Below the pieces are notes generated by a model. The model saw nothing but the letters and a program-made list of their open reading frames with translations. It had not been told where the DNA came from and ran no database searches. Made by a program: the position numbers and the translations under genes. Shown here piece by piece: positions 22,118-41,500 of a stretch of 64,000 bases of DNA. The stretch is from Bacteroidaceae bacterium. GTDB taxonomy: Bacteria > Bacteroidota > Bacteroidia > Bacteroidales > Bacteroidaceae. The number at the start of each line of letters is the position of its first letter. The first letter of the stretch is position 1. The stretch spans positions 36,324 through 100,323 of the forward strand of contig JAGCPY010000001.1 in assembly GCA_017965425.1 (NCBI GenBank), in the 5' to 3' direction.

Positions 22118-24178
22118 ATGAAACCAATAAGAAATAAGCTCAGTCAAGGACAGCCCTCTACCTCCGCCACTTCTGCTCCCCTTCCTAAAAAGGAGGGGCA
22201 GAGTGGTGGCTTTCATTCCATCTCTTGTCCTCGGCTTTGGAATTGGAATGTATTCATTGTCTTGGTTCTTCTCGCATCTGGGTTGGTGTTATTAAAACAG
22301 GAAACCGAGACCCTGCTGCGTGCACAGGAACTGAATCTCTGGCTTCCAACAGGTCTTTACTGGAAGACCCTCATGCAGTATCCTGGCGGCGCAGTCTCAT
22401 GGCTGGGCACTTACCTGACACAATACTTCTTCTATCCGCAACTTGGCGTGAGCATCCTTTGCGTCCTTTGGCTCATCATCTGTTTGTTGCTGGTGTGGGT
22501 TTATCGTCTTAAAGGAGCATGGCGCGCGCTGACCTTTCTCGTTCCTGCCGCTTTGATGGCCTGCTTTGTTCAGACGGGCTACTGGCTCTTCTATCAAAAA
22601 CTGCAAGGTCATCTTTTCGTGCCCACCGTCGGCGTGCTCTTTTCCGTTCTTTGCCTCGTCGTCCAGCGGTTGTTCGACAATGGGCTGAATGACAAAGCTG
22701 CTCGCTGGACACGCTTGGGATGGATGGCGCTCGTCTGCATCGTCGGCTATCCATTCTTCGGTGCCTGGGCACTTGGAGCTACGGGGCTGTTGGGTATCTA
22801 CTGCCTGATCACACCTGTCTCCCCAAAAGAGATTCCCTCTTCCGATTCGGGCATCCTTCCTTTCTGGAAAAGATGGGAATGGGTTCCCCTTCTCCTCGCT
22901 CTCATCCTCATTGCTGTCATCCCGCAAATCTATTACCAGCGATGGTTCGAAATGACAGAGCGTCCGTATGTCTATCTTGCCGCCCTGCCTTCCATGCACT
23001 ATGGCCAAGAGAGCTTTGAGCAGTTCCGCATTCCTTATTACGCCATCATTCTGGCCTTCCTTGTCGTCAACACAGTGAGTGTATGCGAAGGTTTAACCTT
23101 CGCCAAACGCCTGAAATCCTGGACGAAAGGCGTTGCCGTCGTTCTCCTGCTCGCACTCGCCATCTTCGGCGTCAGCAAAGCGTGGTACCACGATGTCAAC
23201 TTCCAAAAAGAGCTGGCCATGAACCGTGCCATCGAGGAATGCGACTGGGAACGTGTCCTCGACATTGCCCGTGACGGAAGCAGCGAAGTCAAGCCGACAC
23301 GACAGATGGTGATGTACAAGAACCTCGCACTCTTCCGTCTCGGACGTGCAGGAAACGAGATGTTCACTTACCCTGAAGGTTCCACGCCTCAGAATGCCCC
23401 GTGGAAGGTGCACATGACACAAGTGGGCGGTAAACTCATCTATTACCACTACGGCAAGGAGAATTTCTGCTACCGTTGGTGCATGGAGGACGGAGTGGAA
23501 TTTGGTTGGAAGGCAGAGACCTTGAAATTCATGGCACGTACCTGTCTGCTCAACCAAGAATGGGAAGTCGCTCGCAAGTATCTCGATTTACTGAAAAAGA
23601 CCACCTTCCACCACCAGTGGGCCGAACGCTATGCCCGTTTGTTGGATACGCCAGACGCTTTCGACCTCAAGACTTTGGAAGCCACGGCTAAGGCTGGTGC
23701 ACCCATCATGGACGAACAGATGACACGCGAGTTCGCTCCCATCATGCACATGATGACCTACCCAGACCGCCTCGACGGTGACAACACGCTTGTCGAGATG
23801 TACCTTCTCCAAACCTTTGCCCACGGCAATGGTGACGACCCGCTCTTCCAAGAGATGACCCTCATTTGTGCTCTCATCATGAAAGACATCGATATTTTCT
23901 GGCCGCGATTCATGAAATATGCGACCATGAATCCCAATATCCACATGCCACGCCATTATCAGGAAGCCGCCTATCTCTATGGACATCTTGAAAATAAGGT
24001 GGACATCTCACACATGCCTTTCGACCCCGTTGTCAAAGACACATACGAACGCTTCATGAAATTCAATGAGCAATGCGGCCCCATGACTGAGGAACAGAAA
24101 GCCATCGCCTTCTATCCACAGTTCGGCAGCACCTTCTATTATTTCTATTTCCTCGTGCGCAACCAGAAGACCAATTAA
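22118..24178 (+). CDS. DUF6057-like polytopic membrane protein
   Basis: This 686-residue protein has an N-terminal half with about ten hydrophobic segments (first at about residues 45-62, VFIVLVLLASGLVLLK; last near 335-350, VAVVLLLALAIFGVSKAW), followed by a soluble helical C-terminal half resembling TPR-type repeats (CDWERVLDIARDGS, NQEWEVARKYLDLLKK). I think it belongs to the Bacteroidetes family DUF6057, from its layout and its neighbour, a PD40/haem-motif protein; this is recollection, not a search. Function is unknown. The N-terminal 45 residues are polar and contain an in-frame palindromic insertion (see 22176-22210). It starts 27 bp after the GH2 stop and ends 4 bp before the next gene. 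Confidence 0.6.
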   Translation: MKPIRNKLSQGQPSTSATSAPLPKKEGQSGGFHSISCPRLWNWNVFIVLVLLASGLVLLKQETETLLRAQELNLWLPTGLYWKTLMQYPGGAVSWLGTYLTQYFFYPQLGVSILCVLWLIICLLLVWVYRLKGAWRALTFLVPAALMACFVQTGYWLFYQKLQGHLFVPTVGVLFSVLCLVVQRLFDNGLNDKAARWTRLGWMALVCIVGYPFFGAWALGATGLLGIYCLITPVSPKEIPSSDSGILPFWKRWEWVPLLLALILIAVIPQIYYQRWFEMTERPYVYLAALPSMHYGQESFEQFRIPYYAIILAFLVVNTVSVCEGLTFAKRLKSWTKGVAVVLLLALAIFGVSKAWYHDVNFQKELAMNRAIEECDWERVLDIARDGSSEVKPTRQMVMYKNLALFRLGRAGNEMFTYPEGSTPQNAPWKVHMTQVGGKLIYYHYGKENFCYRWCMEDGVEFGWKAETLKFMARTCLLNQEWEVARKYLDLLKKTTFHHQWAERYARLLDTPDAFDLKTLEATAKAGAPIMDEQMTREFAPIMHMMTYPDRLDGDNTLVEMYLLQTFAHGNGDDPLFQEMTLICALIMKDIDIFWPRFMKYATMNPNIHMPRHYQEAAYLYGHLENKVDISHMPFDPVVKDTYERFMKFNEQCGPMTEEQKAIAFYPQFGSTFYYFYFLVRNQKTN
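22176..22210 (+). repeat. in-frame palindromic repeat inside the DUF6057-like gene
   Basis: CCCCTTCCT then AGGAGGGG with a 4-nt loop gives a hairpin with one unpaired base, followed by a G-rich tail. It is translated as PLPKKEGQSGG (residues 21-31). The same unit, read in the same frame, occurs in nrnA (28102-28151) and tolC (40370-40412). Confidence 0.65.
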
Positions 24179-24182
24179 AAAC

Positions 24183-25868
24183 ATGATGTTTCCACTATTC
24201 AACCACATAAAGAACGTCCTGTATGTTGCGATTCTATCGCAACTACTATTGTTCTCATCCTGCACCTCGCCTTCTGCCCCGACCTCCTTCACAGAAGACA
24301 AGGACCTACCCACCATCTACCCTGACTATATTGGCGTCACCGTCCCCTGCAACATTGCTCCCCTGCATTTCCACATCGACCACGAAGCCGAGGCTACAGA
24401 CTTCGTCACTCGTTTCACAGCCGGCGGCCAGCAGTGGACACTCGATGGAGAGGATGTCTGCACAGGCATGAAGAAATGGCAGAAAATGAAAGATGCAGCC
24501 TTGGCTGCTGACGGAAAGATTTCCGTTGAAGTCTTCGTCAAGAATGAAAAGACATGGCAGCGACAGCAACCCTTCAGCATCACAGTTTCCAAGGACAGCA
24601 TCGACCCCTACATTTCCTACCGCCTCATTTCGCCTTCATACGTAACCTACGAAGACCTGACACTGAACCAACGTTGCCTCGAGAACTTCGACGAAAGTCT
24701 TATTTACGGGAACATGATTAACAGCGACGAGAAGAACGGACAGTGTATCAACTGCCATCACGCTCAATGGTACAATCCTCAACGCATCCAGTTTCATGTT
24801 CGTCAGCACTTAGGCGGTACTGTCATCGCCTATGATGGTAAGCTACAGAAGATCAACCTCAAGACCGACAGCACCATTTCCGCTGGAGTCTATCCAACTT
24901 GGCATCCCAGTAAACCGTGGATTGTCTATTCCACCAACATGACAGGGCAGAGTTTCCACACGCGCGACATCAATAAGATAGAGGTGCAGGATACCAAGAG
25001 CAACCTCATCTTCTATGACCTTGAGCATAACGAGGTAACACCCATCACGCGTGACACTACGTGGTTTGACTGTTTCCCCTTCTGGTCACCCGACGGAAAG
25101 TATATCTATTACGTCAGCGCCCATTGGGAGCGTCGCGACACGGTGAACATGGATTTTGAACTCATCAAAAACTATAAGGAGGTACAGTACAACCTCTATC
25201 GCAAGCCCTTCGACGAGCAGACCCGTACCTTTGGCCCTCGTGAACTCATCTACGATGCCGTGGCACGCAACCGCAGCGTCACCCTGCCACGCGTCTCCCC
25301 CGATGGGCGCTGGCTGATGTTCACCGAAGGACAATATGGTGTCTTCCATATCTGGCATGGCGATGCCGACCTCTTCCTCATGGACCTGACACAGGCCGCA
25401 CCCGTAGAACCTACGCCCGTCGCTATCTTTACCCCCGACGCCCTGCCCGCTGGGGCTGTTCCCCCGACGGCTAACAATGTGGAACGCGAAGCAGCGGCCG
25501 ACAGCCTGCGGGAGGCACAAGGCCTGCGCACCCCTCTTCCCTGCCATATCCGTAACATCACTGAACTCAACTCGCCCGACGTGGAGAGCTATCACTCCTG
25601 GTCCAGCAACGGTTGCTGGGTCATCTTCTCCAGCCGACGCACCGACGGCAACTTCACGCGCCCCTTCATCGCTCACCATGACGGCAACGGTCGTTTTTCC
25701 CGTCCCTTCGAGTTACCGCAGAACAACCCGCAGTACCATCGAGAGTTCCTCCGCAGTTTCAATATTCCCGAATTTCTTTCTGGCCCTGTCACCATCCGAC
25801 CTCAAGAGTTCGCCAACATCATTAAAAAAGATCCGATACCAGCCCAACTGAAGATGAAAAGACAATGA
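24183..25868 (+). CDS. PD40/TolB-like lipoprotein with a CxxCH haem motif
   Basis: This 561-residue lipoprotein has its lipobox cysteine at residue 27 (LFSSC). An Ig-like N-terminal region (about 45-155) precedes a single c-type haem motif CINCHH (Cys188, Cys191, His192). From about 225 to 480 there are WD40-like PD40 repeats (YPTWHPSKPWIVYSTN, FPFWSPDGKYIYYVS, LPRVSPDGRWLMF, YHSWSSNGCWVIFSS), consistent with a beta-propeller. The combination of a propeller and one haem site suggests an electron-transfer or protein-binding scaffold in the periplasm. It overlaps the next gene by 4 bp (ATGA), a strong sign of translational coupling with the S9 peptidase. Covalent haem attachment is inferred from the motif only; some Bacteroidetes proteins of this kind may use the motif otherwise. 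Confidence 0.75.
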   Translation: MMFPLFNHIKNVLYVAILSQLLLFSSCTSPSAPTSFTEDKDLPTIYPDYIGVTVPCNIAPLHFHIDHEAEATDFVTRFTAGGQQWTLDGEDVCTGMKKWQKMKDAALAADGKISVEVFVKNEKTWQRQQPFSITVSKDSIDPYISYRLISPSYVTYEDLTLNQRCLENFDESLIYGNMINSDEKNGQCINCHHAQWYNPQRIQFHVRQHLGGTVIAYDGKLQKINLKTDSTISAGVYPTWHPSKPWIVYSTNMTGQSFHTRDINKIEVQDTKSNLIFYDLEHNEVTPITRDTTWFDCFPFWSPDGKYIYYVSAHWERRDTVNMDFELIKNYKEVQYNLYRKPFDEQTRTFGPRELIYDAVARNRSVTLPRVSPDGRWLMFTEGQYGVFHIWHGDADLFLMDLTQAAPVEPTPVAIFTPDALPAGAVPPTANNVEREAAADSLREAQGLRTPLPCHIRNITELNSPDVESYHSWSSNGCWVIFSSRRTDGNFTRPFIAHHDGNGRFSRPFELPQNNPQYHREFLRSFNIPEFLSGPVTIRPQEFANIIKKDPIPAQLKMKRQ

Positions 25869-28060
25869 AAAAAACTTTCTTCTTTCTTATTTATCATTTC
25901 TTTATCATTTCTATCGCAGCCCAAGGCACTCTCGAAGATTATAATCGTGCCTATGCCTTACAACGCTCCTTCTCTTGGTCGAAGGTCAAGAACCACGTCG
26001 ATGATGCCCGCTGGATGTCTGACGACCGCTTTCAATATCATCTCACCGACGGCGACAAAGGCGTTTGGCACTTCGGACAGGTGAACCCTGACGGCTCCAT
26101 CACCCTTGCTGACAGTACAGCCGACCGTCCCTTAGAGAGTTCATCTTCGGTTCGTGCCCGACGTTTTCCCCGTCGTGACAATGCCAACCCTATTCGCTTT
26201 GTCACCAACCCTTCCAAACGTCGTCATGAGCGCCATTGGATGGAAACCGACGACGAACGCAGTGGCGACCCCGTTTTCTCTCCGGATTCCTCTCTCGTGG
26301 CCTTCATCCGAAACGACAACGTCTATGTGGCCAAGCCCGATGGTTCGGAAACTCGTGCCATCTCCACAGAAGGAACCCTCAGCCACTACTTCAGTAGCTA
26401 CATCCAGTGGAGCCCAGACGGCCATTACTTGGCCGTCAACCGCATCCGTCCCATTGAAAAGCGTTACGTCTATTATGTGGAATCCTCCCCTTCCGACCAA
26501 CTTCAACCCATCCTTCATAAACAGGAATATGCCAAGCCTGGCGACGAATTAGCTCAGAAGACACCCTATATCTTCGAAGTTGCTTCGGGTCGAGCTGTTT
26601 GCCCGGCCCCTGAACTTATTGCCAACCAGTATGACCTTTCACGCTTAGAGTGGTGCAACGACTCCCACTCCATCCGTTTCGAGTACAACCAACGCGGCCA
26701 CCACTTATACCGTGTTTACGAGATGGCTGTGACAGGGAATGTGCGCACTCTTATAGAAGAGCGCGAAGTGAAGTATGTCCGCTACTCCAACAACTACCGT
26801 CACGACCTTTACGGAGACAGCCTCATCCTCTGGTTGAGCGAACGTGACGGTTTCCCTCACCTCTACCTCTTCGACACCACTCGCCCCGTCCCCAAGAAAA
26901 AGAAAGGAACTTCCCCCACGGAATGCCTGTCACGGCAGTTGACTCGCGGAAACTGGTGTGTCCGCCGTGTCCTCCACATCGACGAGGAAAAAGGCATCAT
27001 TTTCTTCTCGGCCAACGGCATACACCCCGAGGAAGATCCATATCACATCCATTATTGCCGTGTCAAGCTTGACGGCACTGGTTTCACAGACCTCACTCCT
27101 GAGCCCGCCAATCACAACGCTCGCTTTAACGACGATTTCTCTGCACTCATCGACACCTATTCGACGCAAAACACGCCTCCTACCACCAAAATAAGAGTGT
27201 TCGGCGATTCAGTCGCCGAGAAGACCCTCGCCAGTGCAGACATCACCGACCTTATTTCGTCAGGTTGGACAGCACCTGAAATCTTCGTGGCATCCGGTCG
27301 CGATGGAAAGACACCCATGTGGGGTATCATCCAGCGCCCCTCCCACTTTGATCCATCTAAGAAATATCCCGTCATCGAATACATCTATGCAGGACCAGGT
27401 GACAGCTACACGCCCAAGTCCTTCCAGCCCTACAACTACTACACATCCTCTTTGGCAGAGCTCGGCTTCATCGTCGTGCAACTCGATGCCATGGGTACCA
27501 GCAACCGCGGCAAGGCCTTCGAAGAAGTATGCTACAAGAACCTCAAGGACGCAGGCTTCCCCGACCGCATCGCGTGGATAAAAGCCGCTGCAGAGAAATA
27601 CCCCTACATGGATATCAGCCGCGTAGGTATTTATGGATGTTCGGCAGGCGGCCAGGAAAGCACAGGAGCCGTCCTCTTCCATGGCGACTTCTACAAAGCG
27701 GCTTACAGCGCCTGCGGATGCCATGACAACCGCATGGACAAGATTTGGTGGAATGAACAATGGATGAGCTATCCCGTTGATTCCTCCTATATCGAGTGCT
27801 CCAACGTCGAGAACGCCTATCGTCTGGAGCGGCCTCTCATGCTCGTCGTCGGCGAATTAGACGACAATGTAGATCCTGCCAGCACCATGCAGGTTGCCGA
27901 TGCACTTATCAAGGCCAATAAGCCTTTCGAGCTCGTTGTCATCCCCGGTGCACATCACACCGTCGGTGAACGCTTCGGTGAACATAAGCGCTTCGACTTT
28001 TTTGTCAAGAATCTCCTCGGCGTAGAGCCGCCTGCATGGAGTGAGGTGCAGAGCAAATGA
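25865..28060 (+). CDS. S9 family prolyl oligopeptidase / dipeptidyl-peptidase IV
   Basis: This 731-residue exported peptidase has a hydrophobic N-terminus (residues 4-20, ending SIAAQ), a DPP IV-type beta-propeller (about 35-470, with RWMSDDRFQYHL and HYFSSYIQWSPDGHYLAVNR), and a C-terminal alpha/beta hydrolase. The catalytic serine is Ser593 in GIYGCSAGGQ; the aspartate is 666 or 667 in GELDDNVDP; the histidine is 697 or 698 in PGAHHTVGE. DPP IV enzymes remove X-Pro or X-Ala dipeptides in the periplasm. It starts inside the stop codon of the haem/PD40 lipoprotein, so the two products are probably made in equal amounts and may act together. Confidence 0.9.
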   Translation: MKKTFFFLIYHFFIISIAAQGTLEDYNRAYALQRSFSWSKVKNHVDDARWMSDDRFQYHLTDGDKGVWHFGQVNPDGSITLADSTADRPLESSSSVRARRFPRRDNANPIRFVTNPSKRRHERHWMETDDERSGDPVFSPDSSLVAFIRNDNVYVAKPDGSETRAISTEGTLSHYFSSYIQWSPDGHYLAVNRIRPIEKRYVYYVESSPSDQLQPILHKQEYAKPGDELAQKTPYIFEVASGRAVCPAPELIANQYDLSRLEWCNDSHSIRFEYNQRGHHLYRVYEMAVTGNVRTLIEEREVKYVRYSNNYRHDLYGDSLILWLSERDGFPHLYLFDTTRPVPKKKKGTSPTECLSRQLTRGNWCVRRVLHIDEEKGIIFFSANGIHPEEDPYHIHYCRVKLDGTGFTDLTPEPANHNARFNDDFSALIDTYSTQNTPPTTKIRVFGDSVAEKTLASADITDLISSGWTAPEIFVASGRDGKTPMWGIIQRPSHFDPSKKYPVIEYIYAGPGDSYTPKSFQPYNYYTSSLAELGFIVVQLDAMGTSNRGKAFEEVCYKNLKDAGFPDRIAWIKAAAEKYPYMDISRVGIYGCSAGGQESTGAVLFHGDFYKAAYSACGCHDNRMDKIWWNEQWMSYPVDSSYIECSNVENAYRLERPLMLVVGELDDNVDPASTMQVADALIKANKPFELVVIPGAHHTVGERFGEHKRFDFFVKNLLGVEPPAWSEVQSK

Positions 28061-28066
28061 AGAATA

Positions 28067-29200
28067 ATGATACAAGAGACACCTATTAGCAACAGTAACT
28101 ACTTCCTTCCTCACAGGGAGGGCAGGGGCTGGGTCTCCCTCCTCTCCCCTTCCGACAAAGCCCTTTGGCTGCAGCTCCTCTCCGCTGCACGCCATATCGT
28201 CATCACCTGCCATCGCGGACCTGACGGCGATGCCATCGGTTCCACAACAGCCTTGGCTTCCTGGTTGCGACGTCACTACCCTGAGGCCGACATCCGCGTT
28301 GTGGCTCCTACCATTTTCCCGGACTTCCTCAAATGGATGCCAGGAGCTGAGGACATTCTTATTTACGAGAAGCACGAGGACGAGGTGCGCCCGATTATTG
28401 AACATTCCGACCTCGTCATCCTATGCGACCACGGCGAGCTCAAACGCATGTGGACTCTTGGCGATGTCGTCCGCGACCACCCCACCCCGCGCATCATGAT
28501 CGACCATCATCTCGATCCCGAACAAGGCATCGCCGATCTGGTCATCTCACATCCTGACCTCTCCTCTACCTGTGAGGTACTGCTGCGCGTCATACTTGAA
28601 CTGGAGCCTTTGTTGGCAGATGGCTGTCCTGCCAGCTCCCTTCCCCTCCTCACTCACGACGAAGCCGTGTCCCTCTATACCGGCATGATGACGGACACCG
28701 GCGCCTTCACCTACGCCAGCACACGACCGGAAATCTACGAGCTCATCAGCATCCTCCTACAGCACGGCATCGACAAGGATAAGATCTATCGCAACGTCTT
28801 CTTTACCTACAGCCCTAATCGCCTGAAGCTTCAAGGCTATATGCTCTATGCCAAGCTTGACGTTTGGAAAAAGGCTCACACCTCCATCATGACCTTTACC
28901 AATGCAGAGCGTCGCCGCTTCGGCACCCTTAATGGCGACACCGAAGGACTTGTCAATCTGCCACTGCAGATTCTCGGCATGAAGCTCTCCATCTTCCTCC
29001 GCGAAGACACCGAGCACCCCTGCATCCGCGTCTCGCTCCGCTCTGTAGATGACTTCCCCTGCAACGAGATGGCAGCAGAGTTCTTCGGCGGCGGCGGACA
29101 CAAGAACGCTGCCGGCGGTGAGATTTGGGGCACCATGGACGACGCCGTCGCCATCGCCAAGAAAGCCGTTCAGAAATTCCTCCCTCTCCTGAAAGAATGA
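28067..29200 (+). CDS. nrnA: DHH/DHHA1 phosphoesterase, NrnA-like (nanoRNase / pAp phosphatase)
   Basis: This 377-residue cytosolic protein has DHH-superfamily motifs in order: CHRGPDGDAIGST (about residue 46), VILCDHGELKR (about 121), DHHLD at 146-150, GMMTDTGAFTYAST (about 205) and the DHHA1 glycine loop GGGGHKNAAGG (about 342). NrnA degrades RNA fragments of 2-5 nt and dephosphorylates 3'-phosphoadenosine 5'-phosphate. The first 30 residues are not typical of the family and come largely from an in-frame palindromic insertion (28102-28151). A housekeeping enzyme within a run of exported proteins is odd; it starts 6 bp after the S9 stop and may simply ride on the transcript. Confidence 0.85.
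   Translation: MIQETPISNSNYFLPHREGRGWVSLLSPSDKALWLQLLSAARHIVITCHRGPDGDAIGSTTALASWLRRHYPEADIRVVAPTIFPDFLKWMPGAEDILIYEKHEDEVRPIIEHSDLVILCDHGELKRMWTLGDVVRDHPTPRIMIDHHLDPEQGIADLVISHPDLSSTCEVLLRVILELEPLLADGCPASSLPLLTHDEAVSLYTGMMTDTGAFTYASTRPEIYELISILLQHGIDKDKIYRNVFFTYSPNRLKLQGYMLYAKLDVWKKAHTSIMTFTNAERRRFGTLNGDTEGLVNLPLQILGMKLSIFLREDTEHPCIRVSLRSVDDFPCNEMAAEFFGGGGHKNAAGGEIWGTMDDAVAIAKKAVQKFLPLLKE
28102..28151 (+). repeat. in-frame palindromic repeat at the start of nrnA
   Basis: The G/C-rich unit (CTTCCTCACAGGGAGGGC followed by GGGTCTCC) is translated as FLPHREGRGWVS, residues 13-24. It aligns with the tolC copy over most of its length, with a 1-base difference in a G run, and with the DUF6057 copy over its first half. 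All three are read in the same frame as L-P-x-x-E-G. Confidence 0.65.
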
Positions 29201-29222
29201 AACAATAATAATATTTCCTTAT

Positions 29223-31724: not shown

Positions 31725-31779
31725 ATAATACTGCCCGCTAAAGTCGGACACCAATATCTTTTACAGATGAACGACCTGT

Positions 31780-32379: not shown

Positions 32380-33785
32380 AGCATTTCTCTTGGGTCTGTA
32401 ATTACTCCTGTTACGGCAGTGGCGGCCACGGTCAGAGGACTGGCCAAGATGGTGCGTGCGCCAGGACCTTGTCGCCCGACGAAATTGCGGTTGGAGGTGG
32501 AAACACAAAGCTTGCCGGCAGGCACCTTATCGGGGTTCATGGCCAGACAGGCGGAGCAGGATGGCAGACGGAGTTCAAAACCAGCCTCTTCGAGAATCTC
32601 GTCGATGCCCTCGTCTATGATCTGCTGACGCACCACCCACGAGCCTGGCACAAGCCAGGCCACCACGTTGGGCGCTTTTTTCCTGCCCTTCACCACGGAT
32701 GCGAAGGCACGGAAATCCTCGATGCGCCCGTTGGTACATGCTCCGAGGAAGACGTAATCGACGGGGGTGCCAAGCAGACGCTGGCCTGGGGTAAACTGCA
32801 TATATTGAAGTTGAGCAAGGAAATCGGCTTCATCCGCTTGCCCCCTCTTGTCCGGGATGCACTCGTCCACGGCCATCCCCTCGCCGGGGTTGGTGCCGTA
32901 GGTGATGCGAGGTGCAATGTCCTGTGCATTGAAAGTCACCTCTTTGTCAAAGACGGCATCGTCGTCGGAACGCAGTTGGCGCCATGCTTCCACGGCCTTG
33001 TCCCATGCCTCGCCCTTTGGAGCGTACTCACGCCCTTTGAGGTAGGCAAAAGTGATGTCATCCGGTGCTATCAGCCCTGCACGCGACCCCATCTCGATGG
33101 AAAGATTCGAGAGCGTGAGGCGACCTTCCATCGACATGTTACGGATGGCAGAACCGGCATATTCCACGGCATAACCTGTGGCGCCACCGGTTGTCATCTT
33201 TGCCATGATGTAAAGCGCTACATCCTTCGCCGTCACGCCCTTGCATAATTCGCCTTCGATGTTGATGCGCATCGTCTTTGGCTTCTGTTGGAGAATGCAC
33301 TGCGAGGCCAGCACCTGAGCGACTTCGCTCGTACCAATTCCCATCGCGACGGCTCCGACAGCTCCGTGGGTGCTCGTATGCGAGTCGCCACAGACGATGG
33401 TCATCCCCGGCAGAGAAAGTCCTTTCTCGGGACCTACGACATGGATGATGCCATTGTCCTTCGTGCCCATATCGAAGTGGCTGATACCGAACTCCTTGCA
33501 GTTGCGTTTCAAGGCCTCCATTTGCCTGACTCCTACTGGAAGCGGCTCGCTGGCAGTGCTGGGTGTATTGTGGTCGGGCATGGCGAAAATCTGTTTGGGT
33601 CTCAGCACTTTCAAGCCCTTGTCGCGAAGTGTGTCGAACGCCTGCGGCGAAGTCACCTCGTGGAGGTAGAGGCGGTCGATGTACAACTGTGTAGGGCCGT
33701 CCTCTACGTTTTGCACGACATGGGCATCCCAGATTTTGTCAAAAAGTGTGCGCCCTCTCGGTTCTTGTTGTCGAAATGTGCTCAT
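32376..33785 (-). CDS. leuC: 3-isopropylmalate dehydratase large subunit
   Basis: This 469-residue member of the aconitase family has its [4Fe-4S] ligands intact: Cys350 in GACTNGR, and Cys410 and Cys413 in [12 protein letters not shown]. Other family blocks are MPDHNTPST (about residue 69) and [19 protein letters not shown] (about 130). It pairs with LeuD for the second step of leucine synthesis. The usual companions leuA and leuB are not adjacent, so this is a two-gene operon here. A -7 box (TACCTTTG) lies about 30 bp upstream of the start. Confidence 0.96.
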
Positions 33786-33814
33786 TGATTATATTACTTC
33801 ATCGAATTTGGGGA

Positions 33815-33822
33815 CAAAGGTA
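33815..33822 (-). promoter_or_regulatory. -7 box of the leuCD promoter
   Basis: On the minus strand the sequence reads TACCTTTG, matching TAnnTTTG, 30 bp before the leuC ATG. No clear TTTG -33 box is found at the expected distance, so only the -7 part is supported. Confidence 0.55.
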
Positions 33823-33945
33823 AAAAAAAGATAGAAAAGGAGCGAAAGGAAAAGCGAAAATCTTTATCCATGCACTCAGAAAAACACATGACGGCATATA
33901 AAAACGGTTTCGCCAACGTCCCTGTTACGGCTTAGAAATTGCACA

Positions 33946-34233
33946 TTTTTTGCTGTAGGATAAGCAAAAAACAGACCCTATTTTTACATTTTGTTCAAAT
34001 ATTATCTACATATAACAAAAATCATCTTCCTAATTGAATATTTGTATTTCAATGATTTAAATGTAATAGGTAGAGGAGTAGATAATTTATATCAAACAAT
34101 AGGAAGAAGAATGTTAGTTTTGCTCCCATCAGCTGTTCAGCCAAACACCTTTTGCCGTACACGGCAAAGGTAGAAGGTGCACACAAAACAAGGCGAAGGT
34201 GTACACGTTCCTGTGAGAAAGTGCACACGTTCC
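33946..34233. other. gene-free leuC upstream region with hairpins and dispersed motifs
   Basis: The 464 bp between leuC and the Nudix gene holds no credible gene. It contains a hairpin TTTTTTGCT/AGCAAAAAA (33946-33954 with 33963-33971, 8-nt loop) that could terminate in either direction, an A+T-rich stretch (34000-34110), a hairpin TTTGCCG/CGGCAAA (34151-34157 with 34162-34168), and three copies of the dispersed motif: a partial GAAGGTGCACAC near 34173, the exact GAAGGTGTACACGTTCC at 34195-34211, and a variant at 34217-34233. These lie just beyond the Nudix stop codon. Confidence 0.6.
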
Positions 34234-34249
34234 GCTGAAACGGTAAAGA

Positions 34250-34789
34250 TCAGAAGTGGGAAAAGTATTTGTAGAGGGGAGCCATCATGGAAACCTGCAT
34301 GAAGTCTCCCTGAAGCAGCATCTCCTTGACGCGTTCCTGTGGAAAGGTATAGACTTCAATGTCCTCAGTGTCATCGAGATGCTGTGTGGCCGTTTTCTCC
34401 ACTCCGATGGCGAGGAAGCTGTGAGTGATGTTGTTCATAGAGCTGGCGTTGCAGGTAAACTGCATGACTTCCTGCCACTGGCCACCGGTGTATCCTGTCT
34501 CCTCCATCAGTTCGCGTTTGGCGGCGTCCATAGGGTCTTCCCCAGGTTCGACGCAGCCGGCGACGATTTCGAAGCAAGTGCGTCCGAGGCCGTGGCGATA
34601 TTGCCTGATGATGACCATTTCGCCGTCGGTGGTGATGGCAATGACGTTGATCCAGGTTGGGTATTCAAGTACGTAGTATTCGTCGTTGATGCGCCCGTCG
34701 GGCAGCTGACAAGTGTCGCGCCTTGCGGTCAGCCACGGGCGACGGAAGAGGTATTCCGAAGAGAGCGTTTTCCAGTTGAGGTCCTTCAT
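34250..34789 (-). CDS. Nudix hydrolase, ADP-sugar pyrophosphatase type
   Basis: This 179-residue protein has an intact Nudix box at residues 78-100: G78, E84, then REL-x-EE-x-GY from Arg92 to Tyr100. The surrounding sequence (VIIRQYRHGLGRTCFEIVAG) is typical of the ADP-ribose/ADP-sugar pyrophosphatase branch. It would hydrolyse a nucleoside diphosphate linked to another group in the cytosol; the exact substrate is unknown. I place the start at ATG 34789, which gives the normal family length; the frame is open upstream only as readthrough of the rhamnulokinase region. It lies 37 bp after the rhamnulokinase stop and is probably the last gene of that transcript. Confidence 0.87.
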   Translation of the reverse strand: MKDLNWKTLSSEYLFRRPWLTARRDTCQLPDGRINDEYYVLEYPTWINVIAITTDGEMVIIRQYRHGLGRTCFEIVAGCVEPGEDPMDAAKRELMEETGYTGGQWQEVMQFTCNASSMNNITHSFLAIGVEKTATQHLDDTEDIEVYTFPQERVKEMLLQGDFMQVSMMAPLYKYFSHF

Positions 34790-34826
34790 AATGAGAGAGG
34801 AAGAGATGGTGATGGAGAAGGAGAAA

Positions 34827-36281
34827 TTACCGCGGGCGATATTCTTGAATATCAATGCTTCTGGCGATGAGCGCCCGCATGTCAGAGAGCGTGTTGACAA
34901 GGCCATTGGCGCGCACCTGCACGAGGACGTTCCCGAGGGCAGTTCCCTCTTGTGGTCCGGCAATGACGGGCAGTTGAAGGGCGTCTGCGGTGAACTGCAT
35001 GAGATATTGATTTCGAGAGCCTCCGCCGATGACGTGCAGACGCTGGATGTCGATGTCTGTGAGGTTCCTCAAGAGTCCGATGACGTCACGATAACGGGCT
35101 GCGAGCGAGCGGAAGATGACGCGAACAAAATCGGCTGGAGTCTGCGGCAGAGGCTGGTGTGTCTCGGTGAGGTATTCGCAGATGGCGGCCGTCATGGAAG
35201 CCGGATGGGCGAAGCGCGGGTCGTCGGGGTTGATGATGCTATCGCAGGAAGATGTGAGACAGAGTGCGTTGAGTTCGTTGACGTCGGCGGGAACGGTGGC
35301 AGTTGTGACGTCGCCTGCGGGAAGAGAAGAGGCCGCAGCCATCCACTCCTTTCGACATTGTTCGAAAATCCAGAGGCCGGTGATGTTTTTGAGGAAGCGT
35401 GTCGTGTGGTCGAGCCCGCCTTCGTTGGTGAAGTTCTCGGCGAAGCTGTCTTTGTTGATGATGGGCGTCGCCGATTCCACACCGAGCAGGCTCCACGTGC
35501 CGCAGCTGAGGTAGGCGAAATGCGCGTCTTCGGCAGGCACAGCGGCTACGGCAGAGGCGGTGTCGTGAGAGGCGACGGCAACAACGGGAACGGCTCCGAG
35601 ACCGGTCGCAGCTTGCACTTGAGGCAATAGCGTCCCCACGTGCTGTCCGGGTTGCACAAGACGCCCGAAGTGATGCCGTTCGAGCCCTACGGTCTTCAGC
35701 AGTTCGGGGTCGAGGTCGCCCGTGCGCGGATTGAGCATCTGGGACGTGGAGGCGACGGTGAACTCACAGACGGCCTCGCCCGTGAGCATGTAGATGAGCG
35801 CGTCTGGAATGAAGAGGATTTTGTCGGCATCCTGAAGAGCCACACAGCCCTCCCTTCGCAGGGTGTCGAGTTGGAAGAGGGTGTTGAACGGCATGAACTG
35901 GATTCCGGTGCGTTCATAGACTTCCTGCTGCGGCATTCGGTTGGCGAAAAAGTGCTGCATAGCTCCGTCGGTATGCGGGTCACGATAACAATAAGGAAGT
36001 CCAAGCAGCTGGCCGTCTTTACCAAAGAATGCGACGTCGCATCCCCAGGTGTCGATGCCGATGCTCTTCAGTTCCACGCCCTCGGCCTTTACTTTCTGCA
36101 AAGCCTTGATAATCTCACCATAGAGGTGGGGCAGATTCCAGAAGATGTGTCCGCCGACAGGCAGCTGCGGATTCTCGAAACGGGTGAATTCTCGCATTTG
36201 AACACGCTGTCCGTCAAAGGTGGAGAGGACGGTGCGGCCGCTGGTGGCTCCCAAGTCCACGGCAAGATAAGTAGAAGGCAT
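34827..36281 (-). CDS. rhaB: rhamnulokinase (FGGY family)
   Basis: This 484-residue protein is close to the usual 489 of RhaB. It begins with the sugar-kinase phosphate loop LAVDLGATSGR and has GIDTWGCDVAF (about residue 75), the catalytic base Asp240 in VASHDTASAVAA, LSCGTWSLLG and the C-terminal adenosine loop VIGGGSRNQYLMQ. RhaB phosphorylates L-rhamnulose in the cytosol. No rhaA, rhaD, transporter or RhaR gene is in the window, so it is away from a canonical rhamnose operon; 28 bp separate it from the upstream ABC permease. A GH88/GH105 gene, a family often acting on rhamnogalacturonan, lies 3 kb away, which fits rhamnose use but does not prove it. Confidence 0.9.
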   Translation of the reverse strand: MPSTYLAVDLGATSGRTVLSTFDGQRVQMREFTRFENPQLPVGGHIFWNLPHLYGEIIKALQKVKAEGVELKSIGIDTWGCDVAFFGKDGQLLGLPYCYRDPHTDGAMQHFFANRMPQQEVYERTGIQFMPFNTLFQLDTLRREGCVALQDADKILFIPDALIYMLTGEAVCEFTVASTSQMLNPRTGDLDPELLKTVGLERHHFGRLVQPGQHVGTLLPQVQAATGLGAVPVVAVASHDTASAVAAVPAEDAHFAYLSCGTWSLLGVESATPIINKDSFAENFTNEGGLDHTTRFLKNITGLWIFEQCRKEWMAAASSLPAGDVTTATVPADVNELNALCLTSSCDSIINPDDPRFAHPASMTAAICEYLTETHQPLPQTPADFVRVIFRSLAARYRDVIGLLRNLTDIDIQRLHVIGGGSRNQYLMQFTADALQLPVIAGPQEGTALGNVLVQVRANGLVNTLSDMRALIARSIDIQEYRPR

Positions 36282-36309
36282 AGCAGATATGATAAGAGTG
36301 AAACAATAA

Positions 36310-37494
36310 TCAATTGAAGATGGAACGTCCGACCGCCTTACGGATTTCAAACATATAGATGAGGCAGGACAGGAGGAAGTAGATGGCGGCAAGAATCCAC
36401 AATGCCATGATTTCCGTCTGGCAATCGCCCAAAGACGCGCCCATGCCTTGAATGCGCACATAGGCGTTCAAGCCCCAAGTAGAAGGGAAGACGGCTCCCA
36501 CGGCTTTCCAGAGGGGCGGAATGGCACTTCCCGGCCAGCTGACACCGCTCAGGAACAGCAACGGAATGGACATGAAGACAAAGAGTAGAATGCAGTCCTC
36601 GCGCCGGTAGATGAAGCTGGAATAGAAGATGGCCATGTAGGTGCAAGCCAGCAGATACGGCACGAAGAAGCTGAACAAGTCCCAGAAGTGGCCCAACTGG
36701 GGCAGACCGAACCAACGCGTCACGCAGACGGCCATGTAGAACCCCATTAGCAGGAAGAGCAGGAAGTAAACAAGACCTTTGCCGAGCACAATCGCCAAAG
36801 TGCTCTTGTAGTACTTCGACGGAGGAATGACGAGCCCACGGAAGCGCTCACGCGAACGCCCCATCGACATGCCAACGCCCAAGCACAGAGCCTGTTGCAG
36901 AATGAGCATCAGGACTGGCGGAATGAGGAAAGCGGCAAAACCTCCAGCAGAATTATAGAGTTTCACTTCCTCGAAACGAATCGGCCAACGTGCAACCTCT
37001 TCCTCTCGTGCCGTGGTGTTGGCCTGACGCTCAATCACCTTGATGTTGCGGTTCAGTTCCTGAGCCACATTGATGATGCCGAGGTAGGCCACTTTATAAT
37101 AGAGCATCGAGGTGAGGTCACTGTATAACCCGACAACCGTTTGCTGCCCACGCCAAAGTCGCAAGTCGAACTCACGAGGTATGAGCAAGATGCCATAGAC
37201 ATCTCGACGTCGCATGAGTTCCTGCGCTTCAGCCATGCTGGTGCAATGGGCCGCAATCTGCACCTCCGGTGTAGCATCCACACGTCGGATGAAATCGCGG
37301 CTTCGGTCGCTCATGTTTTCATCGACGACACAGACAGGCAACTCGCGCTGCGTCTCGGTGTCATAGATCATGGCATAGAGCAACGGATATGCCAATGGCA
37401 GGAGCACGACGAAGATGAGGATGCCTTCGTCCTTGACCAACTCGCAAAGTTCGTCCCACCAAACGTGAATAATCGGAAACTTGGGCTTTCTCAT
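36310..37494 (-). CDS. ABC-2 type transporter permease
   Basis: This 394-residue membrane protein has one N-terminal transmembrane segment (about 25-44, ILIFVVLLPLAYPLLYAMIY), a large extracytoplasmic domain (about 45-170) and five or six further segments from residue 175 on (AAFLIPPVLMLILQQAL, YFLLFLLMGFYMAVC, LLFVFMSIPLLFLSGVSWPG, IMALWILAAIYFLLSCLIY). This is the YbhR/YhiN-like ABC-2 layout. It starts inside the stop codon of the paralogous permease (4-bp ATGA overlap), so the two probably form a heterodimer. With the HlyD and TolC proteins it would make a trans-envelope exporter. No ATPase gene is in the cluster. Confidence 0.88.
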   Translation of the reverse strand: MRKPKFPIIHVWWDELCELVKDEGILIFVVLLPLAYPLLYAMIYDTETQRELPVCVVDENMSDRSRDFIRRVDATPEVQIAAHCTSMAEAQELMRRRDVYGILLIPREFDLRLWRGQQTVVGLYSDLTSMLYYKVAYLGIINVAQELNRNIKVIERQANTTAREEEVARWPIRFEEVKLYNSAGGFAAFLIPPVLMLILQQALCLGVGMSMGRSRERFRGLVIPPSKYYKSTLAIVLGKGLVYFLLFLLMGFYMAVCVTRWFGLPQLGHFWDLFSFFVPYLLACTYMAIFYSSFIYRREDCILLFVFMSIPLLFLSGVSWPGSAIPPLWKAVGAVFPSTWGLNAYVRIQGMGASLGDCQTEIMALWILAAIYFLLSCLIYMFEIRKAVGRSIFN

Positions 37495-38732
37495 TCTTTA
37501 TATTCTTTATTGAGTAACGCATCCTCCAGGCGGAAGGCAAAAAACTGAGGCAAGAGATAAATGGCTACCAATGCCACCACGCTTGTCCATACATAGCTGA
37601 TGGAGTAGCCGTTCAAAGCCTGATTGACGTAGATGAGGAAGTAATGGTGAAGGGGGAAAATATTCGACAGCCATTGGAAAGGCAAAGCCATAGCAGACAC
37701 GGGGAAGGAGAATCCTGCCAGCGAGAACTGCATCACGCCCAAGAGCGAACAGGCAGACATGGCCATGCGCATCTGTCCCGGAAAGGCCTCAAACATCAGC
37801 AGGCCGAAGCCCTGAGAGGACAGCACAGCGAGAAATCCCCAAAGCATCATGCGTGGGACGCCACATGCACACGGGAACTGTAGATAGCTGTAGAAGACAA
37901 GGTCGATAAGCCAGAAGATGATGGTGTAGAGCATTGTTTGCGGCAGCAACTTCCCTAAAATGATGATGCCGATGTTGCCTTTTCCCATGTTGTAGAGTTT
38001 CTTCTGCTTCCCTCGTTTCCATTCGTTGCCGAAGGTATAGCTGGTCGTGAGCATGATAACAATCATCAAGAGCCCCGGCACGATGAGGTTTGACAAGACC
38101 ACGGAATAGTTCAGATAAGCGTTGCCCAGGGGATGAGCCTCAATGACGATTGGCTGAAGTGTTCCCATGATTTGGTCGTCTCGAAAACCTTTCGCACGCA
38201 TCGTGGCGCGAGTCATGGCCAAGCCGGCCATCTCGCCCATCTTTCTCATGTCCTTCATCAGCAAGGATGCAGGTACGTAGTAGGAGTCATTGGTATAGAA
38301 CGAGATGACGGGCTGACGCTGTGTCAGCGCTTTCTCGGTCGTTCCTTTGGGTATGCAGAAGATGGCATAGACTTCTCCCCGTTGCATAGCTTCACGCGCC
38401 TCGGTGAAGCTCTTTGTCTGGACGACGAAGTTCGTTTCTTCCATCGTTCCCAAGATGCGGGTGAGCTGTCTCGTCACATGCGTGTCGTCCTCGTCCACCA
38501 AGGCTGCTGGCAGTTTGGTGGGCAGTCCCGCCTGCATCAGGCTTGTGAACATCCACAAGAACCCGAGGGGTGCGACGAACATGATGATCAGGAAGATGGG
38601 TCGTTGTCCGAACGTGCGCAGTTCCCGCCGTGTGATGTGCCAGAGCGCTCTGATGGCAGCAGCGATTCCCCGCTCATGTTCTTGCCGTGAGGAGTCGTAT
38701 GCCAGAGGCTGATTGTGATTTGTTTCTTTCAT
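37491..38732 (-). CDS. ABC-2 type transporter permease
   Basis: This 413-residue protein has the same layout as the next permease: cytosolic N-terminus (1-45), a transmembrane segment (about 46-66, LIIMFVAPLGFLWMF), a periplasmic domain, and several C-terminal segments (SNLIVPGLLMIVIMLTTSYT, MLYTIIFWLIDLVFYSYL, MLWGFLAVLSSQGFGLLMF, SVVALVAIYLLPQFFAF). The motif SFPVSAMALPFQWLSNIFPL is typical of ABC-2 permeases. Substrates of such Bacteroidetes systems include drugs and lipids, but none is known here. It follows the HlyD gene by 23 bp. Confidence 0.88.
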   Translation of the reverse strand: MKETNHNQPLAYDSSRQEHERGIAAAIRALWHITRRELRTFGQRPIFLIIMFVAPLGFLWMFTSLMQAGLPTKLPAALVDEDDTHVTRQLTRILGTMEETNFVVQTKSFTEAREAMQRGEVYAIFCIPKGTTEKALTQRQPVISFYTNDSYYVPASLLMKDMRKMGEMAGLAMTRATMRAKGFRDDQIMGTLQPIVIEAHPLGNAYLNYSVVLSNLIVPGLLMIVIMLTTSYTFGNEWKRGKQKKLYNMGKGNIGIIILGKLLPQTMLYTIIFWLIDLVFYSYLQFPCACGVPRMMLWGFLAVLSSQGFGLLMFEAFPGQMRMAMSACSLLGVMQFSLAGFSFPVSAMALPFQWLSNIFPLHHYFLIYVNQALNGYSISYVWTSVVALVAIYLLPQFFAFRLEDALLNKEYKE

Positions 38733-38755
38733 GAGTTGTGGAAGCGGTGCATCCT

Positions 38756-39742
38756 TTATTTGATGATGGCAGTCATACCCGCCAGCACATCCTTGATGTC
38801 AGCTTGGTTCAGAGGCATTGCAGTCACCTCAAATGTCTTGAGGTCATACTGATCCAGCGCTTTCGTAGCCTTCCACGTGGCATAGCTTCCCATGACATTG
38901 ATGGCGGTAATGCGCACCTTCAGTTCACGGTCGAGAGCCGGCATGTACACCATCAATTCAGTACCCACGGTCATTCCGGGCAGGTAGTCTTCCCGCACGT
39001 TGAAAATGAATCTGACGTCGTCTGTGCGTGCAATGTTCATGATGGGTGCTCCTTGTCCAACGAGCTCGCCGACTTTCGGGAAAACCTCGGTGACGGTTCC
39101 GTCCGCGGTGGCCAGAAGCACCGTTTCTTTCATGTATCCCTCTACTTCGCTGATGGCACCTTTCGCTCTCTGCACCTGCGCACGTGCGGCAGCCTTGTCT
39201 TCGTTTCTTGCACCTTCTTTGGCCATCTCATACTGGCTATGTGCGGCCTTTTCGGTGGCTTGCATCGCTTTCAACTGCGCCTCTGCCTCATCTCGTTTCT
39301 GTGCAGGAATCACTCCTTCGTCGAACAGGCGTGCCACGCGGTCGTATGTCTTCTGAGCCACCTCCAGGCCAGCCAGCGCCTTCTGCCAGAGTTCGAAAGC
39401 ACCTTGAATCTCCTGCTGCCGTGCTCCGTTCTGAGCCTTTTGCTCGATAGCTCTGGCAGCCGCTTCCGCCGCCTCAGCCTGTTGCATCTTCGCCATCACT
39501 TCGGGCGAATCCATGATGACCAGTGTGTCACCAGCCTTGACCTTGTCGCCGGTCTTAACCTTCAGTTCCTTCACCCTGCTTGGCACCTTGCTCGAGATGC
39601 GGTAATCCGATGTTTCCGCCTGCCCTTGCAACACCTCTTTAGGTTTGGGCAGGAAGATTCCGACGAGGATGACAAGCGCCATGACGCCCACCAGCACGAG
39701 TGCAATGATGAGCAGATTGTTCAGTTTCGTTTTTTTCGCCAT
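38756..39742 (-). CDS. HlyD-type membrane fusion protein
   Basis: This 328-residue periplasmic adaptor has a signal anchor (about 8-29, NLLIIALVLVGVMALVILVG), a first lipoyl half (VKAGDTLVIMDSPEV), a long alanine/glutamine/glutamate-rich coiled coil (about 75-195, QAEAAEAAARAIEQKAQNGA), the second lipoyl half (LATADGTVTEVFPKVGELVG) and a beta barrel to the end. It would join the inner-membrane permeases to the TolC channel. The start at ATG 39742 (MAKKTKLNN) is preferred; a few more upstream codons are open. It begins 64 bp after the TolC stop. Confidence 0.9.
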   Translation of the reverse strand: MAKKTKLNNLLIIALVLVGVMALVILVGIFLPKPKEVLQGQAETSDYRISSKVPSRVKELKVKTGDKVKAGDTLVIMDSPEVMAKMQQAEAAEAAARAIEQKAQNGARQQEIQGAFELWQKALAGLEVAQKTYDRVARLFDEGVIPAQKRDEAEAQLKAMQATEKAAHSQYEMAKEGARNEDKAAARAQVQRAKGAISEVEGYMKETVLLATADGTVTEVFPKVGELVGQGAPIMNIARTDDVRFIFNVREDYLPGMTVGTELMVYMPALDRELKVRITAINVMGSYATWKATKALDQYDLKTFEVTAMPLNQADIKDVLAGMTAIIK

Positions 39743-39806
39743 AATATACACGGCCGGAGCCGCTGTTTTAAGTTGTTATCTATTGTTTAAGAGTTATCTT
39801 ATTCAT

Positions 39807-41441
39807 TTAATGAAGCGTTCCCAAAGCCCGTTTGAGGTAGAGGTCAGCCAGTCTGACATCAATCTCGGCTTCGACGAGCGTGGAGTGTGCCGCAAGCCAC
39901 GCCGTCTGTGCCTGCAAGACGTTAGCGACAGGTATCACGCCCTCCTTCATACCTAAATTAGCCATTCTGAGATTCTCGTCAGCCTGTTCCTGCGAGCGCA
40001 TGGCCGCAGACATCCGCTGCTGTGCCTCTTGGAATTTCTGCTGCGTCTGGTGCACCTGCAAGGTAATCTTCTCCCGGACTTCCTCGACGCGCGTCTGTGC
40101 AATCTGCGCCTCCGCTTTTGCCTGTCGCACCTTATAGATACGGTCTCCCCACGTTAAGATGGGCACCTTGAGGACGAGACCGACGCTCCACATTCCGTTG
40201 AACTTTTTCTGAAAGCCATTGAACACGTTAGGATTAGAAACCAGATATCCAGCCGTCAGCGCCAGATTGGGCATGTATTCAGCCCGCGCCACTTTCACCT
40301 CTTCGCGTTTCACCTGTGCGGCCACATCCAGTGCCTGCAGCTCAGGACGGTTGGAGAGGGCAGTGGAGACCAGAGGAGACCCAGTCCCTTGCCCCTCCCC
40401 ATCAGGAAGGGTGGCGACTGTCTCTGGTTCGGTTCTGCTTTCGTCCTCCAGCTGGAAGTCAGCATCGAGTGGCAATCCGCAGACCTGCGCGAGTGCCATG
40501 CGCGAAAGAGCCAACCCGTTCTGCACCTGAATCATGGCCAGCTCCGCCTCATTCAATTTCACCTTGACAGACAATCCGTCAGCTTTGGTCGCCATGCCTT
40601 CTGCAATCACCTTCTCCACGTCTGCATCGAGTTTCTTGACCGTTTCAAGAAAACCCTCAGCCAACCTCTTCTTGCTTTCCAAGGCCACGATGCGCCAGTA
40701 GGCTTCGTCAACACTGACCATCAAGTCCTGCTCCTCCATCGTATGTTGCGCTCCTGCGGCCTGCTCTGCCAACCGCGTTATGCGGTCGTACGCACGAATC
40801 TTGCCACCCATGTAGAGAGGTTGCGTCAGCATCACAGCTGCCCCCGTCATGTTGCGCGTGTCTGTTCGGAAAGCATCCACGATATTCTGCCCGACGCCAT
40901 CCACGAGCTGCCCCATACTTGTGAGCATACTGTTGAAAGCTGTTGAAGCCTGCTGGAGATAAGGCGCCGTCAGTTGCTGGAGCGCCTGTGGATTCGCCAT
41001 CATCTGCGCCAGCTGAGGATTCTGCGCCAAAAGCGCCTGCATCTGTGGGTCCTGCATCATCGCCGCGAACTCGGGGCTCTGCATGAACGCTCCCATCTGC
41101 TGCTGGAAACCCGTGAAGCTTTGTTGTGCCCACGATCCAATGCCGTTCGCCATCAGCGAGCCAGCGTGAGAGAGCTTAGTTTTCTGGTCGTCGCTCAACA
41201 GCGACACCTCCTTAGACGTTCGCTGATAGGTGCCGACGGCAGAGATTTTCGGCAGGTAATTCGTCAAGACACTCTTATGCTGCCAGTGAGCGGCGTCCGC
41301 TTTGAGTGAGCTCATCTGCAAACCCTTGTTGTTGCGCAAAGCCAATGCACGGCAGGAGTCGAGCGTGAGCCTTTCCTGCCCCTGTGCAGACAACGTCACA
41401 AGCCAGCAAGTCATTAAAAAAAAGTAAAGTCTTTTCATCAT
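39807..41441 (-). CDS. TolC-family outer-membrane efflux protein
   Basis: This 544-residue protein starts MMKRLYFFLM and has a signal peptide (1-21, LSAQG). The two halves of the TolC fold are visible (LTLDSCRALALRNNKGLQ near the start; YLVSNPNVFNGFQKKFNGMW and LKVPILTWGDRIYKVRQAKA in the second half). It is longer than the usual 430-480 for two reasons: a Met/Gln/Pro-rich insertion at about residues 110-160 (MQDPQMQALLAQNPQLAQMM), seen in some Bacteroidetes TolC proteins, and an in-frame palindromic repeat at about 343-358. It is the first gene of the exporter operon; ATG 41438 directly follows and could also start it. Confidence 0.9.
   Translation of the reverse strand: MMKRLYFFLMTCWLVTLSAQGQERLTLDSCRALALRNNKGLQMSSLKADAAHWQHKSVLTNYLPKISAVGTYQRTSKEVSLLSDDQKTKLSHAGSLMANGIGSWAQQSFTGFQQQMGAFMQSPEFAAMMQDPQMQALLAQNPQLAQMMANPQALQQLTAPYLQQASTAFNSMLTSMGQLVDGVGQNIVDAFRTDTRNMTGAAVMLTQPLYMGGKIRAYDRITRLAEQAAGAQHTMEEQDLMVSVDEAYWRIVALESKKRLAEGFLETVKKLDADVEKVIAEGMATKADGLSVKVKLNEAELAMIQVQNGLALSRMALAQVCGLPLDADFQLEDESRTEPETVATLPDGEGQGTGSPLVSTALSNRPELQALDVAAQVKREEVKVARAEYMPNLALTAGYLVSNPNVFNGFQKKFNGMWSVGLVLKVPILTWGDRIYKVRQAKAEAQIAQTRVEEVREKITLQVHQTQQKFQEAQQRMSAAMRSQEQADENLRMANLGMKEGVIPVANVLQAQTAWLAAHSTLVEAEIDVRLADLYLKRALGTLH
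40370..40412 (-). repeat. in-frame palindromic repeat inside tolC
   Basis: On the coding strand this reads CTTCCTGATGGGGAGGGG then CAAGGGACTGGGTCTCC, translated as LPDGEGQGTGSPL. It lies between the two TolC repeats (after LEDESRTEPETVA), where an extra loop would be tolerated. It is the closest relative of the nrnA copy, sharing the GACTGGGTCTCC / GGCTGGGTCTCC tail. Confidence 0.7.
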
Positions 41442-41468
41442 TTTGTATGTCCTTTCTTTTTGCGGCTG

Positions 41469-41500
41469 CAAAGGTCGTGAGTTTTGAGGAAAACGTCAAA
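41469..41500 (-). promoter_or_regulatory. candidate promoter of the tolC operon
   Basis: On the minus strand TTTG (41497-41500) is followed after 20 nt by GACCTTTG (41469-41476), an imperfect match to TAnnTTTG at the right spacing, 27 bp before the tolC start. Confidence 0.5.

Follow-up and report, generated by a model that had tools for sequence, protein, structure and literature searches.

In-frame REP-like palindromes in Bacteroidaceae genes and their association with DUF559 endonuclease genes

The window analyzed here is a 64,000-nucleotide stretch of the genome of a Bacteroidaceae bacterium (GCA_017965425.1, contig JAGCPY010000001.1, positions 36,324 to 100,323), in which a first-pass annotation had described a palindromic repeat inserted in three unrelated genes, encoding a DUF6057 protein, NrnA and a TolC-like protein. 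We found the three segments at these places, in frame, and they belong to one DNA family as degenerate copies of a palindrome that resembles repetitive extragenic palindromic (REP) sequences. At the level of sequence, our comparisons show both the DNA repeat family and its in-frame invasion of genes. They further lead us to propose, with moderate confidence, a mobile REP-like family that enters protein-coding genes in frame, whose full form is REP-DUF559-REP, with an endonuclease gene between two arms, and whose worn arms are the three segments. The segments and their host genes are as follows.

22172..22215, plus strand: degenerate N-type REP arm that encodes, in frame, SAPLPKKEGQSGGFH at residues 19-33 of the DUF6057 protein (profile E 1e-4)
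28095..28138, plus strand: degenerate N-type REP arm that encodes, in frame, SNYFLPHREGRGWVS at residues 10-24 of NrnA (profile E 0.0018)
40374..40410, minus strand: degenerate REP arm that encodes, in frame, TLPDGEGQGTGSP, part of a loop in a TolC-like outer membrane efflux protein (profile E 0.18, weak)
22118..24178, plus strand: host gene of the DUF6057 protein (Pfam PF19529)
28067..29200, plus strand: host gene nrnA (Pfam DHH and DHHA1)
39807..41471, minus strand: host gene, tolC-like (Pfam OEP)

A hairpin pattern derived from all three segments matched the window only at 22180, 28105 and 40393 (minus strand). A profile was built from 65 copies lying elsewhere in the genome and scored against the window and 51 other stretches of the same genome (50 around repeat matches and one around a Y1 gene); it found three copies in the window. 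The tolC copy is weak when taken alone; a relative, locus L254, carries a clean two-armed insert at the identical site. The blocks said to be common to nrnA and tolC (CTTCCT, a GGGGAGGG-type block and CTGGGTCTCC) are present, and the DUF6057 gene has no start codon between the arm and the Pfam domain.

A search of the whole genome (3.73 Mb in 96 contigs) for the unit, which the annotation had proposed as a check, gave 133 matches to the 23-base pattern CTCCCTNNNRGGGAGGGGCNGGG with up to three mismatches, as against 5 for a reversed control. The window and the fetched stretches hold 121 of these matches (about nine in ten), which represent only 92 places because near-palindromic hairpins match on both strands; in the same DNA, the profile recovered 120 distinct copies at E<0.2, 92 of them strong (E<1e-3). 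The arm consensus is C[CT]ACTCCCC-TCCCT-RCAA-GGGAGGGGCAGGGGGGTGGGTCT, with C[TC]AC 5' of the hairpin and GTGG 3' of it, and GT[AG]G was not found at the 5' foot of the hairpin in this consensus. As a correction to the annotation, most copies belong to inverted pairs: 41 of 43 neighboring pairs less than 200 bases apart are inverted with their tails outward and two are in tandem, the corresponding numbers for strong copies being 30 of 31 and one. As in REP and REPIN families, we are thus dealing with a short palindrome in many copies, arranged as inverted pairs at short distance.

Genes were called by codon use with our own caller and longest starts, and the position classes below include copies merely touching a gene. 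So counted, 97 of the 120 copies are within or touch called genes, which is not the extragenic placement of REPs and REPINs, and 23 are outside. At 5' gene ends there are 36 copies on the same strand as the gene and 4 on the opposite strand; at 3' ends, 0 and 21; and in gene interiors, 17 and 19 (for the 92 strong copies 31 and 2, 0 and 20, and 11 and 11, with 17 outside genes). Several of the 3' copies start a few bases from the stop codon. Of the 34 arms that a gene contains entirely and close to its beginning, 21 start at a distance of 7-11 codons from the start as called. The expectation that tails and loops would receive the insertions was correct; in-frame copies occur close behind the start codon, at the stop codon or within loops. 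The frame read as L-P-x-x-E-G, which the window segments do share, is not a rule, because all three frames are used: same-strand copies within genes fall 19, 23 (L-P-x-x-E-G) and 7 by frame (n=49), and opposite-strand copies 11, 5 and 11. Together with the genome-wide recurrence and the many orthologues without the segment, this use of all frames upholds the view that a DNA repeat, and not a protein motif, has invaded these genes.

A Pfam scan of 49 of the 55 listed copy-bearing proteins plus TolC (gene names here follow Pfam families) found a family in 48 of the 50. The arm is located 1-5 residues ahead of the domain in Fmt, IspH, EtfA, Ddl, RibF and ArgG, and at the C-terminal end in UxaC, a class II tRNA synthetase and Cmk. 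It is internal in glutamate synthase (three arms), asparagine synthase, an MFS protein and glycerate kinase, with weaker internal copies in DapB and an amidohydrolase. No ATG, GTG or TTG separates arm and domain in 19 of 21 N-terminal cases, hand-picked from the Pfam tables; a MatE protein and an OAD_beta protein are the exceptions. The arm in these 19 is therefore translated with the gene, unless the start is inside the arm or the domain; translation presumably starts at the upstream codon, before the arm. In four loci (L058, L077, L043 and L057), arms directly follow apparent signal peptides (..LLPA-KVTAPSL, ..LLAQ-VTTPSL), and the mature protein would therefore begin with the arm.

Comparison with relatives suggested that the same sites have been filled repeatedly. 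For nrnA, 80 loci were found, largely from ruminant-gut Prevotellaceae and Bacteroidaceae, and the 27 closest (L121-L147) were analyzed with the window. The gene start lacks the insert, with a direct M-x-P-[IL]-L, in loci such as L127-L130 and L133; others, such as L122, L123 and L125, have an insert immediately ahead of [FL]-L-[ST], and its hairpin often differs. Overall, 13 of the 28 loci have the N-terminal insert, 14 do not and one is unclear. This distribution needs 9 changes on the tree (28 loci, 2641 columns), 8 of them forced by well-supported branches, and it is as scattered as that of shuffled labels (mean 9.6 changes; 202 of 500 shuffles as low). A loop of NrnA carries two-armed inserts in 7 of the 28 loci, with 6 changes on the tree. 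A comparison of the short form of this loop, GTAGACTCTTCCC (L144), with the filled form, TTAGAC-CCACC...GGGGAGAG-TCTTCC (L123), suggests that insertion may occur without target duplication, although only one site was compared, and a scar could also account for the short form. Likewise, the start of the DUF6057 gene is filled in some relatives and empty in others. For tolC, the 15 closest of 29 other loci were aligned with the window, and the loop is filled in 2 of the 16, by the two-armed insert of L254 and by the single arm in the window, with nothing similar in the other 14. The predicted absence of the segments from orthologues thus held for many of them, but many relatives are filled at the nrnA and DUF6057 starts, often by another hairpin sequence. 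Among 61 genomes of the genus, 35 contain the exact hairpin CTCCCTNNNAGGGAGGG, with up to 73 forward matches and none for the reversed control, as do 15 of 101 genomes drawn from the family, with one control match; these genome counts are lower bounds because relatives also carry other hairpins.

The endonuclease gene enters the picture through two sites in the same genome. Here, arms in front of fmt (Formyl_trans_N, L051) and in front of an MFS gene (L065) enclose the same small gene, whole in one copy and with an internal deletion in the other, whose product matches PF04480 and is a Vsr-like endonuclease of the DUF559 family. In three cases in this genome (fmt, MFS and argG), the DUF559 stop codon overlaps the ATG that restarts the downstream gene. 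We then scored flanks as positive when inverted repeats on both sides exceeded the best of 60 shuffles by more than 6, their identity as REP arms being assigned by sight. The test covered 34 DUF559 rows (30 of about 90 genus matches and four stretches of the own genome), that is 33 distinct genes, since L068 and L278 are one gene. Inverted REP-like arms flank 29 of the 34 rows, or 28 of the 33 genes, and in 23 of these 29 rows the mutually inverted arms are no more than 75 bases away from either end of the DUF559 match. Only 7 of 233 control genes in L121-L147 passed a laxer version with 20 shuffles (Fisher p 4e-27 on row counts, the flanks of DUF559 beginning where the tblastn match ended and those of controls where the gene ended). 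DUF559 is thus strongly associated with a position between REP arms, an arrangement, or any DUF559 with an inverted repeat, that we did not find described in the open-licence literature as far as searched. The arms of gene-less and gene-bearing copies are alike. In addition, 8 gene-less copies among the 84 other strong ones match the 24-base 3' leader of the DUF559 unit above 99.9% of shuffles when a shift of up to 4 bases is allowed (3 copies exceed the null in ungapped comparison); some of the 8 are two-armed units lying within a GH35 gene and within an MFS gene. DUF559 is also a distant sequence relative (E 0.0044) of the mobile intron protein 3r3p, of the I-Bth0305I type, and as far as sequence alone can tell, these inserts, like homing elements, encode a homing-related endonuclease.

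DUF559 also occurs within conserved proteins. Of 75 strong DUF559 matches found within the genus, 19 are in open frames longer than 250 amino acids, and a draw from the phylum had DUF559 in 109 of 198 genomes. Ten long frames were scanned: DUF559 is in frame with host domain on both sides in a leucyl-tRNA synthetase, a methionine synthase, a type I restriction subunit, a type ISP enzyme and an epimerase, and with host domain on one side in the other five, including a guanylate kinase. The inserts run directly into the host frame. Linkers such as SPLPLGEDLGEG resemble arms; both leucyl-tRNA synthetase cases fail the flank test. Among other Bacteroidota, the cases in leucyl-tRNA synthetase, methionine synthase and the type I restriction subunit come from L308, L311, L328 and L314, L311 being assigned to leucyl-tRNA synthetase by sequence only.

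Across the 61 genus genomes, DUF559 is present in 37, and its matches follow the REP matches (rho 0.53, p 1e-5); it occurs in 29 of the 35 genomes with any REP match and in 8 of the 26 without (p 5e-5). Several observations weigh against the proposed mobile element. These correlations ignore phylogeny and their match counts include gene pieces, and at a threshold of at least 10 REP matches the difference is not significant (DUF559 in 15 of 19 versus 22 of 42 genomes; p 0.09). The second-richest REP genome, G018, has no DUF559 match, while 8 genomes have DUF559 without the CTCCCTNNNAGGGAGGG hairpin, in some of which the DUF559 arms have another hairpin (L280, L292, L302). Most interiors of the junction pairs are unlike beyond about 20 bases, and therefore many pairs may not be simple deletion derivatives, having diverged or arisen otherwise. 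Outside the genus, 29 new DUF559 loci were obtained, 3 of them with short flanks, and only 13 of the remaining 26 passed the flank test, 7 out of the 15 that stand alone and 6 out of the 11 within long frames. Finally, the presence and absence states among relatives were set by eye and may include losses and recombination.

We propose that the complete element would consist of a REP arm, a small DUF559 (Vsr-like) endonuclease gene and an inverted REP arm, and that two-armed, REPIN-like units and single arms would be derivatives that have lost the gene. In this model, both arms are open to read-through in several frames; at gene junctions, the left arm would abut the upstream gene or provide its stop, and a start codon in the interior, mostly 7-11 codons ahead of the right arm, would restart the downstream gene; and in loops, both arms would be translated through as a linker of about 34-40 residues. 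Because the arms are readable, the left arm gives a stop and the interior gives a start, such an element could survive in a packed genome. The element is presumably mobile, and DUF559 may be its engine, presumably it rather than another enzyme. The best reading of the sequences is that in-frame insertion would proceed without splicing. Whether all this amounts to a Bacteroidota class of protein-invading mobile elements, in which REP-flanked DUF559 enters conserved genes in frame without splicing and gene-less arms give rise to REP fields, we consider evenly balanced. In such a class, DUF559 elements would be kept as a linker-embedded domain or would split a gene junction with their own stop and start, and the gene-less arms would be a steady supply of new protein tails and loops.

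The main rival, though in our estimate improbable, is a REPIN system proper, in which a Y1 (HuH) REP-associated tyrosine transposase (RAYT) of a long RAYT-like family moves the pairs in trans and DUF559 is a passenger. This divergent family, with frames of about 350-550 amino acids and an extra C-terminal part, has matches (gene pieces) in 38 of the 61 genus genomes, including 17 of the 19 with at least 10 REP matches, and these follow the REP matches (rho 0.48, p 8e-5). One long member matches NCBIfam REP_Tyr_transpos with E 6.9e-13, below the curated cut-off, and the member in the own genome reaches only 6.6e-5. However, the own-genome REP profile, which other hairpins may escape, found copies at 2 of 35 long RAYT loci (31 distinct genes), the nearest more than 400 bases away. 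No RAYT gene flanked by its REPs was found at these loci or at the Y1 gene of the own genome at C21, which is flanked by another palindrome, and the hairpin lacks GT[AG]G at its 5' foot. Ordinary IS200-like Y1_Tnp was rejected as the engine, as it is present in 23 of the 61 genomes and is unrelated to the REP matches (rho 0.17, p 0.20). As separate observations, the C-terminal part of the long RAYT-like proteins (L205-L207, L211-L241) has no Pfam match over the cut-off, and some genomes have several such genes. The IS200-like Y1 genes of the own genome (L042, 7194-7532, minus; L090, 3038-3259) adjoin CCCAGGGC..GCCCTGGG palindromes, which lie on both sides of the L042 gene, upstream of the L090 gene and also around a relative in L210.

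We find it unlikely that DUF559 is a passenger repair or defence endonuclease settling in sites that REPs had already opened. This would fit the repeated filling of identical sites and a Caulobacter DUF559 protein described as a Vsr-like repair endonuclease in PMC12907096. It does not fit as well with the close, inverted arms on both sides of DUF559 and their rarity at other genes, nor with two unrelated sites (fmt and MFS) that share one arm-gene-arm unit, leaders included.

It is very improbable that the copies are intergenic RNA or DNA structures, such as terminators or mRNA stabilizers, combined with over-long 5' gene calls. The 21 copies at 3' gene ends would be expected from this, and published REPs are mostly intergenic, often near 3' ends, with many N-terminal ones thought extragenic (PMC3733652), whereas internal arms or pairs in glutamate synthase, asparagine synthase, glycerate kinase, MFS and TolC proteins, and the 19 N-terminal cases without a later start, would not be; a search of 18000-64000 against Rfam gave no match, which is neutral here. 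Convergent low-complexity protein linkers without a DNA repeat are refuted, even though the copies encode P, G, E, R and S-rich stretches at tolerant places, as copies occupy every reading frame of both strands and are also found outside called genes.

The proposed REP-DUF559-REP family can be compared with several known systems. The annotation likened the repeat to Rickettsia palindromic elements (RPEs), and the likeness is one of behavior: both are palindromic repeats inserted in frame within protein-coding genes, and some RPE-bearing proteins are reported as expressed (cited in PMC3733652). Here, unlike in RPEs, the arms are separable, gene junctions with a stop and a start are among the sites, and a gene-bearing form exists. 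With REP/REPIN/RAYT systems, as described in PMC3116915 and PMC6006769, our family shares short G+C-rich hairpins, about a hundred copies and inverted pairs. It differs in lying mostly in or touching genes, in that its GT[AG]G-like motif and that of REPs are on opposite sides of the hairpin (REPs as defined in PMC6006769 have theirs at the 5' foot), and in that a REP-flanked RAYT was not found, DUF559 lying between the arms instead. In-frame REP inserts have been reported inside subclass 2.4 RAYT genes (PMC6006769).

The intragenic GTAG/CGTC REPs of PMC3733652, in the parts covered, come closer, being located within open reading frames as single or double units, with REP ends giving stop codons and, in one case, with similar places in related genes. 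Many N-terminal cases were considered extragenic there, whereas 19 of our 21 have no downstream start before the domain, and an endonuclease partner is not described in those parts. Homing endonuclease genes and inteins are alike in placing an endonuclease gene inside conserved genes, and DUF559 is distantly related to 3r3p, but the present insert either remains part of the protein or divides a gene junction by means of a stop and a start, and it occupies many scattered sites. Miniature inverted-repeat transposable elements likewise have gene-less inverted-repeat forms alongside a gene-bearing form; here, no target duplication was seen at the one site compared, and each arm is itself a hairpin. 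REPs are usually described as extragenic and RAYT-linked, with many N-terminal ones blamed on gene calls, while those studied here are largely coding, in conserved genes and with an endonuclease. If our proposal is true, it would provide a testable engine for orphan palindromic repeats, would mean that DNA parasites add protein segments without splicing, and would call for caution in annotating gene starts in these bacteria.

Other repeats were noted in the window, in which a tRNA search found nothing. Intergenic inverted and tandem GGTGAGGGAT repeats are present at 18450-18815, where two arms, each about 62 bases long and separated by 172 bases, precede a lacZ-like gene; a related GGTGAGGGAT arm is at 45244-45329, and a similar repeat borders a REP pair in L066. 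At 62330-62655, a 50-base unit containing the palindrome CCATGCGGTTTTCCCGCATGG is repeated three times within 330 bases around gene ends, and similar GGCGGTTTCCCCGCC palindromes occur in relatives in one variable loop and one intergenic stretch. Lastly, 42421-43612 and 46352-47555 are 71-76% identical over several pieces and are probably a tandem pair of large genes.

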